From a virus: DNA of 51,148 bases. The position numbers were made by a program, and so were the translations under genes. The DNA is taken from positions 1-51,148 of the IMG/VR virus record IMGVR_UViG_3300011116_001170; one strand, written 5' to 3'. This document shows, piece after piece, positions 5,987-48,152 of this stretch (within the stretch, counting starts at the first letter, position 1; each line of letters starts with the position of its first letter). The notes beneath the pieces are model-generated. The model had not been told where the DNA came from, did not search any database, and saw nothing but the letters and a program-made list of their open reading frames with translations.

Positions 5987-6346
5987 TTACTCCTTTGTTA
6001 TTGTTAATTGATTACCAACCTTGACCATGATTTTTTTAACACAAATCGCGCCCGTGATTGGTTCTATGTAGTGTTCTTCTTTTTCAATCCATTGCTGCTT
6101 TGGAACAAAAACTTCTAGCCAATCGGCGGGAGCGGGCTTTTTACCATAACCATAAGCCTTGTTCCAATCCTCAAGCTTTGTTTCTTTTAAAATTGCATTA
6201 GAAATATATTTAAAATCGCTATCGCTTATCACATTTTTTAAAGATTCATAAACCACGTCAGAATAGCTTTCAGAATATTCAAAGCCGTAAATTTCTGAAA
6301 AAATAGCTAGTGTTTTTATGAAAATTTTAGGATTAAGCATTTTCAA
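5987..6346 (-). CDS. Possible helicase loader-like protein
   Basis: 119 aa, mostly helical: LNPKIFIKTLAIFSEIYGFE, then a 'YESLKN...ISNAIL' helix pair and PAPADWLEVF. Short helical proteins of this shape encoded directly after a phage replication initiator often act like lambda P or DnaI N-terminal domains and bring in the host helicase. The position (overlapping the initiator by 14 bases) is the main evidence; the sequence match is weak. Confidence 0.45.
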   Translation of the reverse strand: MKMLNPKIFIKTLAIFSEIYGFEYSESYSDVVYESLKNVISDSDFKYISNAILKETKLEDWNKAYGYGKKPAPADWLEVFVPKQQWIEKEEHYIEPITGAICVKKIMVKVGNQLTITKE

Positions 6347-7034
6347 CTCCGTGTCTATTTAAAAATTTTTCAGTAGAATCGGCGTTAGTTTGACGTCTTT
6401 TTTGGTCAGCAGTTAAAAACTGGCTTTGATTATTATTTTTAGGCTCAAAAACCCCCGTCCAGTTGCTTTTAATTGAATTTTCTAGTGATTGATTGGCATC
6501 CAAGCCTTTGTTGTGAAATTTTGTCAGCTCTTTGATTATCAACTCGATTGCTTTTTCTGTCGGCTTTGCTTTTTTTGATTTACGCATTTCTAAAAATGCA
6601 TTCCAAAGCGAAGCGTCAATAAAATTTGGGATTGTTATTTGTGATTTAGATTCTTCATTAAGATTATCATTTAGATTTACATTTACATTATTATTAGGGG
6701 TTACGCTAGGGGTTTTCTTGGGGTTAACTAGGGGTTTTCTTGGGGTTTTTTTACTTTTTGGACGACCTCCTTTAACCCCGTGTTTAGCACCTAGACAGCC
6801 ATTTTTAAATCTAGCCTTATTTGCTATCAATTGTGGTTCAATTAGCCTAAAAATTGTCTTTGGATAGCCAATTAAATCTATCAATTTTGTGTTAAGAGAA
6901 AACTCGCAAATTGCGCGATAAATTTGCAATTGATCAGCATCATCTAAATCACCAATCGCCTCAAAAAAAGAGCGATAAAAAATGAAGCTGTTGCGATTAT
7001 TTGTTGTGGTTGGTTTCATTTTTTGACATTCCAT
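6333..7034 (-). CDS. Replication initiation-type protein (DUF6291-like)
   Basis: Up to 233 aa. N-terminal domain with SFIFYRSFFEAIGDLDDADQ and FSLNTKLIDLIGY, typical of DUF6291 phage replication proteins, followed by KNGCLGAKHGVKGGRPKSKK, then a low-complexity Pro/Asn/Asp linker (residues about 110-135). The C-terminal part has LWNAFLEMRKSKKAKPTE and SIKSNWTGVFEPK, as in proteins that bind origin DNA and pass it to the helicase loader. ATGs at 7034 and 7019 are both possible. With no polymerase or helicase in the window, it probably hands replication to the host. Confidence 0.7.
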   Translation of the reverse strand: MECQKMKPTTTNNRNSFIFYRSFFEAIGDLDDADQLQIYRAICEFSLNTKLIDLIGYPKTIFRLIEPQLIANKARFKNGCLGAKHGVKGGRPKSKKTPRKPLVNPKKTPSVTPNNNVNVNLNDNLNEESKSQITIPNFIDASLWNAFLEMRKSKKAKPTEKAIELIIKELTKFHNKGLDANQSLENSIKSNWTGVFEPKNNNQSQFLTADQKRRQTNADSTEKFLNRHGVENA

Positions 7035-7197
7035 TATTTAACATTGCACAAATATTATTCTTAAAGTGGTAAAGTATTTTCTTAACCGAGGTTTTTTGAT
7101 CGGCATTAGCTTGCATCGACTCAAGAATTGGCATTATATATCCAACAAGCCTCTTGGTTTCGTCATTGATTAAGCCTTCGATTTGATTTTGATTCAT
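6997..7197 (-). CDS. Hypothetical protein (66 aa)
   Basis: Small helical soluble protein (IEGLINDETKRLVGYIMPILESM). It is the first gene downstream of the large non-coding RNA region and overlaps the start of the replication gene. It may be regulatory for replication by position only. No family is recognised. Confidence 0.5.
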   Translation of the reverse strand: MNQNQIEGLINDETKRLVGYIMPILESMQANADQKTSVKKILYHFKNNICAMLNNGMSKNETNHNK

Positions 7198-7249
7198 TGC
7201 ATGTTTGACATTAAATTAATTTCCACCACTCTCAATCTTTATTTCTAAA

Positions 7250-8288
7250 AGTCAAGAAAAAATTGCCTTTTTACAGAAGACTAACTGACTAGAACACGAG
7301 CAGCTTTCTAGCCACGTAAAACATGAATAGAAAAGCAAAGAAATTGGCTTTCGGTGCGCGCGCACCTACTCGCCAAATTACAACTATGTTCTGGAAGTTG
7401 CCTCCGAGCTTGGTTGTGTAATGAGCTACCCAAGCTTCCCTCCTGTTTAACGACCGTCTAAGTCACGTCATTACCGAGTTATGCCTTCTTCTTTAGCCAG
7501 GCTGGCTTTCAATAGTGTCGAATTCGACACCTTTAGAATTTGGTGGAGCGAGGCAAGGGAATCGAACCCTTCGCTTTAGCTTGGAAGGCTAAGGTATTAC
7601 CACTATACGAGCCCCGCAAAAATATTCTCTAAAAACAACACCTCAAAAGTTATCAGCGATTCTTTTGCGACGCGGCTAGATGTTGTTGGACTTCATAACC
7701 TAACGCCGTGATGTTGCTTTTAGAAAATATTAAACGAAACCAGCGGGAGTTTGCTCGAGCCTCCCGCCGACCGACTAAGCCAGTTGCAACTAACTTAGCC
7801 CTAGCTCCATCACTTACGTTTAAAAGGAGAGGAATCGCTAGTCTATCTCTTAAGCTGATAATTTGAATAGTCCCTATCGTAGTGTGCCCTCTTTTTCTAT
7901 ACCACAAGCGAGGTGGCTCTATCTAAAAATTTATGCATGGTATTGATAAGCAATCGCTTTTAGACTTTCGGCTGTCGAAGCTTTTTCTAACGATAGCAAC
8001 GCGTTAAAAAATTCCGAATTCAAATTATCAACGTTTTGAAACCCAAAAATCATGAAAAATCAGAGGAGTATCTTGGGCAATATTTTAAGCTGAAACGGTT
8101 GATTTTACAACATATCCCCGACTTTATGCCGATGGCTTTAATTAAGCTACTTTTTCAGCTTAATAAGTTGCCGCCCACTTTTCAATTCAGGCTCTGACGA
8201 ACCGACGGCAACTAATTAAAATGAAAGGGGCGGTGGATTAATGAAAAGAAACCACCGCCCAGCCGCATAAGGGCTACCCGAGGAAGGC
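7250..8288 (-). ncRNA. Large structured non-coding RNA, GOLLD/ROOL-like, with embedded tRNA
   Basis: About 1.04 kb with no convincing gene and visibly higher GC than the neighbours. A promoter (TTGACA, 17 bases, TTTAAT) at 8323-8295 places the start near 8288. Strong stems include a perfect 9-bp one (8228-8236 with 8252-8260), 8 bp (8166-8173 with 8206-8213), 8 bp (8141-8148 with 8157-8164), 7 bp (7743-7749 with 7761-7767), 7 bp (7407-7413 with 7430-7436) and a GC-rich hairpin at 7353-7366. tRNA-Gly lies inside. The 3' end (7263-7284) can form a hairpin followed by TTTTTT on the minus strand, like a terminator. GOLLD RNAs are known to be about 800 nt, phage-borne and next to or around tRNAs. 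Membership here is inferred from these traits, not from a matched model. A related smaller RNA is at 47887-48150. Confidence 0.6.
7544..7617 (-). tRNA. tRNA-Gly(TCC)
   Basis: Cloverleaf on the minus strand: 7-bp acceptor (GCGGGGC with GCCTCGC, one G-U), D arm GTAT-AGTGGTA-ATAC, anticodon stem TTAGC/GCTAA with loop CTTCCAA (anticodon TCC, reads GGA), T arm AAGGG-TTCGATT-CCCTT, and encoded CCA. All elbow bases are normal. It is embedded in the structured RNA region. GGA-type glycine codons are frequent in the late genes, so it may boost their translation, or serve as a processing point of the long transcript. Confidence 0.95.
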
Positions 8289-8294
8289 TTTTTA

Positions 8295-8323
8295 ATTAAA
8301 AGAACTTAACTTTCCATTGTCAA
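8295..8323 (-). promoter_or_regulatory. Promoter of the large structured RNA
   Basis: TTGACA at 8323-8318 (perfect consensus), a 17-base spacer, TTTAAT at 8300-8295. The expected start is near 8288, just at the edge of the first strong stems. A dedicated strong promoter here, behind a gene end and in front of no gene, is the best argument that the next kilobase makes an RNA. Confidence 0.65.
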
Positions 8324-13255: not shown

Positions 13256-13330
13256 GCCGTAGTAGCACAACAGTAGTGCATCATTCTTGTAAAATGGAGG
13301 TTCTGGGTGCAAATCCTAGCTACGGCACCA
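13256..13330 (+). tRNA. tRNA-Thr(TGT), unusual elbow
   Basis: Acceptor GCCGTAG/CTACGGC (7 of 7 pairs), D arm GCAC-AACAGTA-GTGC, anticodon stem TCATT/AATGG with loop CTTGTAA (anticodon TGT, reads ACA), T arm CTGGG-TGCAAAT-CCTAG, then ACCA encoded. Two conserved elbow bases differ: the D loop has one G rather than GG, and the T loop has G at the usual pseudouridine-55 position. It lies between terS and terL, 9 bases before the terL start. ACA/ACT threonine codons are abundant in the tail and fibre genes. Confidence 0.85.
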
Positions 13331-47505: not shown

Positions 47506-47549
47506 CCGTTAAAGTTTTTATTAATATTCTCTAAAAGCGGCACTGGCAA
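47346..47549 (-). pseudogene. Partner of the mini-ATPase, copy 2, 5' end replaced
   Basis: The last 52 codons are identical to the partner gene at 46559-46792, but the N-terminus is different and the frame has no ATG (a TTG at 47549 is the only nearby start). The break falls at the left end of the inverted-repeat element 47523-47718; homology to the paralogue ends at about 47516. The element therefore probably cut off the original start. A shortened protein from TTG remains possible. Confidence 0.6.
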
Positions 47550-47718
47550 AGGACTTTCACCTTTGCATTTGCTTAGACAGCTTCACACTAGTATTATTGC
47601 CATCCACAAGAGTATTGCTTCTGTTTATCCTACTTTTTGCAGTTTTCGGATTGTGAGTCATCTTTCGAGCCTCTACATAGTGTCTTATTCCACCACAGTG
47701 CCGCCATTAGAAAATATT
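47523..47718. mobile_element. MITE-like element with 23-bp inverted termini
   Basis: Left end AATATTCTCTAAAA then GCGGCACTG; right end, read in reverse, AATATTTTCTAATG then GCGGCACTG: 20 of 23 matches. The inside (150 bases) holds a 6-bp hairpin CAAAGG/CCTTTG next to one end and a 34-codon frame with no known match. No transposase. No clear target duplication was seen. GGCACTG-type ends are known in several insertion sequence families, so this could be a non-autonomous derivative. It could instead be an RNA with a long closing stem. Confidence 0.5.
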
Positions 47719-47771
47719 GGTGGAAGGGGTAAGATTTTAACTTACTAAACCAAATCAATCTAAAATATTTA

Positions 47772-47818
47772 GGGTAATTAATCCAACATTTTAAACATGA
47801 TTAGCGGGTAATTAATCC
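47772..47818. repeat. Two copies of a 13-bp repeat
   Basis: GGGTAATTAATCC at 47772-47784 and 47806-47818, 34 bases apart start to start. The core TAATTA is self-complementary, and the second copy is extended to GCGG...CCGC. It may be a pair of protein binding sites (operator or iteron). The region around (47719-47886) has no gene I can support. Confidence 0.5.
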
Positions 47819-47886
47819 GCTTACTGGTGATTTGCCTACTGGTCGACCGCTGACAAATTGGCATTAACACTCGCCCACCCTTACCA

Positions 47887-47944
47887 TAAAAACGAAGCCA
47901 GAACGCGCCTAAACGACGCAATAACAAATGTGTCCTGACTTCGT
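47887..47944 (-). terminator. Terminator of the second structured RNA
   Basis: On the minus strand ACGAAGTCAG (47944-47935) pairs with CTGGCTTCGT (47901-47892), 10 pairs with one G-U, followed by TTTTTA. The loop of 33 bases can itself fold. It defines the 3' end of the RNA. Confidence 0.6.
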
Positions 47945-48150
47945 AGATTTGCCTTTTTACAGAAAGGCTAACTGGCTAATCTTGAACTTACGAAAGCGAT
48001 GATCGTAATTAGCTTGCTCGTATCAGAGGTTTTGCATTCAATATCACTAGCAAAACGTAACCGCTTGATGATTGAAGCCCTTTCGGGCAATTTAACTAGC
48101 TCAACTTGCGTCGTCTAATATTTCTACACTCTTCTTTAGCCGTGCCGATT
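47887..48150 (-). ncRNA. Second structured RNA, related to the 3' part of the large RNA
   Basis: About 260 bases on the minus strand between the spfh stop and a terminator. It shares with the large RNA: a 16-base identical run (47948-47963 and 7263-7278), the element GGCTAAAGAAGA at its 5' side, and the same closing stem (GGCTAA with TTAGCC here; GGCTAA with TTAGTC there, a G-U change that keeps pairing). Internal hairpins: GCCC-GAAA-GGGC with a GNRA loop, 7 bp GTTTTGC/GCAAAAC and 6 bp TTACGA/TCGTAA. It probably follows spfh in one transcript. Confidence 0.6.
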
Positions 48151-48152
48151 GA

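Follow-up and report, generated by a model that had tools for sequence, protein, structure and literature searches.

What kind of RNA, if any, is made from the roughly 1.03-kb stretch that lies ahead of the replication genes of a contractile-tailed phage, and is it one molecule or several? The preliminary description of this locus proposed a single kilobase-scale structured RNA with a tRNA inside, comparable to the giant phage RNAs GOLLD and ROOL. The window analysed here is the whole linear IMG/VR virus record of 51,148 bases, in which the terminase, portal, capsid, sheath, tape measure and baseplate genes are encoded on the plus strand, while RecE/RecT-like genes and an O-like replication gene (6333-7034) are encoded on the minus strand. 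The RNA region (7256-8288, minus) is located upstream of a small ORF (6997-7197) and the O-like gene, on the same strand. The earlier view that it holds no believable gene was borne out: the sole ORF longer than 60 aa within 7250-8288 is an 84-aa ORF with a TTG start (7653-7907, minus), which we rejected as a gene because indels of 1 and 3 nt among the homologues of the module A described below, which run across part of this ORF, argue against coding. The region is also GC-richer than its surroundings (0.36-0.46 over about 7250-8250 vs about 0.25-0.35 on both flanks). A second canonical tRNA of the window, tRNA-Thr(UGU), was found at 13256-13330 (+), just before the terminase gene, and is also present in L004 and L005. 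The features of the region and of a second island of the same phage are collected in Table 1.

Table 1. Features of the two non-coding RNA islands in the window (positions are those of the window).
Feature	Position	Strand	Basis or remark
Promoter-like TTGACA-17-TTTAAT	8323-8295	minus	Sequence; predicted transcription start ~8288
5' hairpin domain, including the 9-bp hairpin GGGCGGUGG/CCACCGCCC	7860-8288	minus	Thermodynamics alone
Module A, three consecutive covarying hairpins	7735-7843	minus	109 nt; alignment and covariation
Terminal-helix unit, directly before the tRNA	7621-7731	minus	Two ~22-nt paired arms around ~67 nt
tRNA-Gly (anticodon UCC), encoded CCA	7544-7617	minus	ARAGORN; Rfam RF00005, 56.9 bits
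Perfect 16-nt palindrome GTGTCGAATTCGACAC	7515-7530	minus	Sequence; hairpin or self-pairing site
H-type pseudoknot AGCC-A-GCCU-GGCU-AAAGAAGA-AGGC	7483-7507	minus	Alignment, covariation, geometry scan
Candidate second pseudoknot GGAG-G-CAAC-UUCC-AGAACAUA-GUUG	7381-7405	minus	Same geometry, geometry scan
Hairpin GCUUUUCUAUUCAUG..CGUGGCUAGAAAGC	7303-7336	minus	Counterpart of the conserved hairpin of relatives
3' hairpin GUCUU..AAGGC, then UUUUUU	7257-7281	minus	Conserved element AGUUAGCCUUCUGUAAAAAGGC; possible terminator or processing site
Promoter-like TTGACTTTTAGAAATAAAGATTGAGAGT of the next operon	7228-7255	minus	Conserved in relatives
Second island: terminal-helix unit	47523-47717	minus	Outer ends as in 7621-7731
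Second island: 168-nt tRNA-like RNA	47718-47885	minus	Bulged acceptor stem and T arm around a long insert; ends in ACCA
Second island: ~200-nt pseudoknot RNA	47949-48150	minus	Homologous to L116 and L117

The limits of 7250-8288 that were originally drawn proved to be good, with an expected transcription start at about 8288 and a U-run at 7262-7257. The promoter-like sequence, which had been called near-perfect, agrees with the consensus at 11 of 12 bases. Four sites with 11/12 matches are present in the whole window, and because about 2.35 are expected by chance, this one is persuasive only by its position just before the folded region. At the other end, the hairpin before the U-run comprises 5 bp with -2.7 kcal/mol; such a weak hairpin makes a terminator no better than plausible, and transcription may therefore run on into the rep operon. 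The minus strand of the region folds to -323.7 kcal/mol compared with -278.9 ± 8.9 kcal/mol for 20 dinucleotide shuffles (z -5.0, none of the 20 as good), which agrees with its description as a structured RNA, and the plus strand folds to -272.0 kcal/mol (z -3.2). Locally, the minus-strand z reached -5.4 at 8151-8300 and -4.6 at 7651-7800 in segments of 150 nt, for which the 51 control segments per strand had a mean of about 0 and an sd of 1.1.

Twelve other virus contigs were found to carry related non-coding islands, which range in length from about 350 to 1300 nt. Most of these lie immediately ahead of early or replication genes and are closed by a conserved promoter-like sequence, TTGATTCTTAGAAATA..GAGAAT. 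The contigs represent fewer than 12 independent lineages, since some of them are close (L013 and L020 share most of the island). In L005, whose terminase is 97% identical, a GC-rich gene-free stretch occupies the corresponding place and 71 nt align to 7763-7833 of the window. L011 was found by a pattern from the shared block, and the hairpin common to L003, L005 and L011 brought the total to 11 virus contigs; L024 was added by a second pattern, and L025-L029 from the same records were also read out. Retrieval by exact patterns favours conserved modules, and the alignments obtained in this way comprise 3-13 sequences. The exact hairpin pattern had no match in the genome-contig collection, and in the annotated phage records matches were found around the tRNA and nothing else similar. 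L010 and L012, which were retrieved with the pattern GTTGCAACTN{4,12}GCNCTAGCTC, were recognised on inspection as chance matches. The content of the islands is a mosaic, i.e., modules differ in order and number across the 12 related contigs, and a canonical tRNA is absent from most of them.

Two further elements were observed in the relatives. Right behind the promoter-like TTGATTCTTAGAAATA, L005 (2340-2460, minus), L011, L015 and L020 have a putative small RNA, AACCAACGC..GCGUUGGUU, with a length of about 130 nt. Additionally, the leader of the gene that follows the island contains a hairpin in L003 (5975-6040), L015, L016 (4950-4990), L019 and L021 (10120-10230), the loop of which (e.g. CUGCAC or GUCCCC) is complementary to an upstream segment, and the same segment stands just before the start codon. 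This hairpin looks like a translational switch, reminiscent of the pseudoknot control of plasmid rep genes.

Compensatory change is most extensive in module A, for which eight divergent versions were aligned and a structure was derived from them using RNAalifold. Pairing was kept with both sides changed in 16 of the 24 pairs, 96.9% of the cells were paired, and the covariation score was 0.673 compared with 0.325 after shuffling and at most 0.174 with the partners slid, the last control being a favourable one since the structure came from the same alignment. Compensation across most of the pairs would be hard to explain without selection on the RNA. A covariance model built from the eight sequences recovered its inputs (97.7 bits for the window), with near-copies as the only new matches, and had no match in 344 genomes of the order of G018, the MAG introduced below, in a search run without a positive control. 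For the 5' domain of about 430 nt (7860-8288), no homologue was found among the related islands. Covariation can be seen on the minus strand in module A and in the pseudoknot, whereas the 5' domain is predicted from thermodynamics.

The pseudoknot has a fixed geometry (4 bp, 1 nt, 4 bp, 0 nt and an 8-nt loop), and both of its helices covary in an alignment of 13 copies, namely 7483-7507 of the window and 12 from islands, including the second island of the window. Helix 1 occurs as AGCC/GGCU, AGUC/GGCU, AGUC/GACU, ACCU/AGGU, CCUC/GAGG and CCUC/GGGG, and helix 2 as GCCU/AGGC, GCAC/GUGC and others. The covariation score of 0.611, which is lowered by the row of L019 being misaligned by one base, compares with 0.290 after shuffling and at most 0.106 with the partners slid. 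The copies were searched for with a geometry scan, a loose motif scan having given mostly noise; the exact geometry was found 11 times, in some cases by chance, compared with a mean of 0.85 and a maximum of five in shuffled islands. No homologue was found for the candidate second pseudoknot.

Between module A and the pseudoknot are the terminal-helix unit and the tRNA. The latter, a tRNA already recognised in the preliminary description, is a canonical cloverleaf. The arms of the former pair at 20 of 20 positions in an inverted-repeat scan, and units of like design were found in the second island of the window (47523-47717), at two places in L114 and at one in L026. All have the same or similar outer ends; their inner arms differ, yet still pair. 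Because shuffles of the AT-rich sequence also yield a few 19/20 inverted repeats, the helix alone is no proof of such a unit, and the argument is its recurrence with compensated arms.

The second non-coding island (47523-48152, minus) consists of three units, which had no Rfam match. Its pseudoknot RNA aligns with two loci of the genome G272 at a mean column identity of 82% in the core. The 168-nt RNA and its two homologues fold into an acceptor stem, bulged at position 3, and a T arm, and leave the terminal ACCA unpaired; in this alignment of three sequences, each of the two stems contains one compensated pair. The RNA was not called by ARAGORN or the tRNA model. It resembles tmRNA and viral tRNA-like structures in that acceptor stem, T arm and terminal ACCA are retained and enclose a large insert. 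However, it had no tmRNA match (ARAGORN, Rfam) and no clear tag reading frame, and it was rejected as a tmRNA. Odd tRNA-like units with a T arm and an ACCA end and no standard anticodon arm were also observed in L025 (about 455-535) and L027 (sense, about 1340-1490); these were not called by ARAGORN.

In the genome collection, the closest terminase (67%) is on L030, a 4.5-kb contig of a MAG titled Rickettsiales bacterium (G018). The 3' hairpin was found, together with related RNAs, in G018 and in G272, which belong to the same order. Because so few of the 344 genomes searched responded (G018, G272 and one marginal genome), a Rickettsiales-like host can be regarded as no more than a lead, and the contigs may be misbinned. 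The array of G018 begins with a promoter-like sequence, tRNA-Asn, tRNA-like units, a terminal-helix unit, a pseudoknot RNA and a small gene, after which tRNA-Gln, a terminal-helix unit, a pseudoknot RNA and a gene of the Acb2/Tad1 hairpin family follow. The islands resemble phage tRNA arrays in that they can hold an intact CCA-bearing tRNA, as the L114 array holds tRNA-Asn and tRNA-Gln; unlike such arrays, they consist mostly of structured RNA other than tRNA.

Size, phage setting and an embedded tRNA, which had suggested the likeness to GOLLD and ROOL, are indeed found here. GOLLD is a large structured RNA of phages and prophages, often longer than 800 nt, often near tRNAs and of unknown function, which self-assembles into a homo-oligomeric cage and whose expression rises at lysis (PMC12286853). 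ROOL is a large structured RNA of phages and prophages near tRNA islands, with an example of 659 nt solved by cryo-EM (PMC12286853), a length that resembles the 5' fragment of about 670 nt that is predicted here. The trait of a large phage or prophage RNA near tRNA genes thus holds for the region, which is likewise structured; the assignment to these families is not supported. Using permissive filters and E up to 10, neither covariance model matched the region. The best hit of GOLLD (RF02032, 416 positions) in the window scored 5.4 bits at 1241-1261 against a cut-off of 150, with no known bearer among the controls, and ROOL (RF03087, 574 positions) had no match at E up to 10, the control genomes, among which no known bearer was run, also being silent. 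The region differs from GOLLD in its mosaic of exchangeable modules, its pseudoknot of fixed geometry and the tRNA in its middle, and neither shared sequence nor shared structure was found with ROOL. The phages ICP1 and K offer another comparison: a gene-free stretch of about 0.8-1 kb with an abundant transcript (PMC7567579) and strongly transcribed long non-coding RNAs near tRNA genes (PMC9241854), which their authors likened to GOLLD and ROOL by size or position (PMC7567579, PMC9241854). These RNAs were seen to be transcribed in experiments, whereas the region described here is known from its sequence, and the comparison was made through the search of the phage collection. In the literature within our scope, which mostly did not extend to subscription papers, no description of these RNAs was found, and the module families appear to be new and part of no catalogued RNA family. 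The fallback proposal of a new, diverged class is therefore closest to the evidence.

That the region is one intact ornate RNA of about 1.03 kb, which behaves like GOLLD or ROOL, uses the tRNA as a structural domain and may form homo-oligomers, is in our opinion unlikely. Its size, phage setting, tRNA, promoter, possible terminator and strong overall fold would suit such a molecule, as would the pairing of the 5' and 3' ends in the minimum-energy fold. However, module order and length vary among the relatives, and the GOLLD and ROOL models found nothing. Moreover, a functional tRNA in the middle of a transcript is normally cut out, and excision should be the fate of the intact tRNA here. The long structured non-coding region on the minus strand was correctly recognised in the preliminary description, but a single molecule is doubtful because relatives shuffle their modules.

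It is also rather improbable that the region is a cis-acting long 5' leader, with the tRNA embedded, that regulates the small gene and the O-like gene at the level of transcription or translation. It does lie directly upstream of the rep operon on the same strand behind a weak terminator, and in L116 and L117 the related pseudoknot RNA or its 3' part is situated between a promoter-like sequence and a gene, i.e., in the position of a 5' leader. On the other hand, the operon is set apart from the islands by a separate conserved promoter-like sequence, island content varies strongly ahead of a downstream gene that changes little, and the RNA of the second island precedes other RNA units. The idea that the tRNA is the sole functional cargo, all else being debris of tRNA arrays at a recombination hot spot, draws on the mosaic structure, the RecE/RecT-like genes of the phage and the odd tRNA-like units in L025 and L027, but is very improbable given that structure has been under selection in module A and the pseudoknot, as their compensatory changes show, and that most islands lack a canonical tRNA.

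On balance, we consider it probable that the region encodes a minus-strand precursor of exchangeable RNA modules arranged around a tRNA. The fold, the covariation of module A and the pseudoknot, the reshuffling of modules and the intact tRNA favour this reading, as does the array of G018, where a single promoter-like sequence is followed by small genes interspersed with tRNAs, tRNA-like units and pseudoknot RNAs. Counting against it are the 5' 430 nt lacking a homologue, the weak terminator and the fact that L116 and L117 have related RNAs in the position of a leader. One non-coding unit would be composed of the 5' hairpin domain, module A, the terminal-helix unit, tRNA-Gly, the pseudoknot RNA and the 3' hairpin; its transcription would start near 8288 and end near 7256. 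RNase P and 3' processing would free tRNA-Gly, which may supplement or replace a host tRNA, and cleavage at the tRNA would leave two further RNAs, one of about 670 nt from the 5' side and one of about 285 nt, with the pseudoknot, from the 3' side. Once released, these could act in trans during infection, a step that, taken by itself, is doubtful at best. The most plausible role in trans would be host takeover or counter-defence, which we offer as a hypothesis from gene company alone. Genes of the Acb2/Tad1 hairpin family (PF24729) are found inside the island of L024 (4898-5131) and directly behind that of L114 (2603-2845), and this was counted in favour of the precursor reading; the small genes flanking the region in the window match no family, and the link is absent here.

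As a wider and more tentative possibility, these phages, and Rickettsiales-like bacteria in some of their mobile regions, might carry an undescribed system of interchangeable RNA cassettes. Transcribed together with tRNAs and the genes of small anti-defence proteins, the cassettes would act in trans against RNA-targeting defences of the host or on translation. The kinds of cassette would be pseudoknot RNAs, tRNA-like RNAs in which a large insert replaces the anticodon arm, and terminal-helix RNAs. We know of no function for the giant phage RNAs GOLLD and ROOL. The modules described here are small, turn up in many different combinations and covary, which makes single modules testable alone, and the tRNA-like units that are invisible to tRNA finders, together with the repeated neighbours of the Acb2/Tad1 type, provide a starting point on the role of such RNAs in infection.
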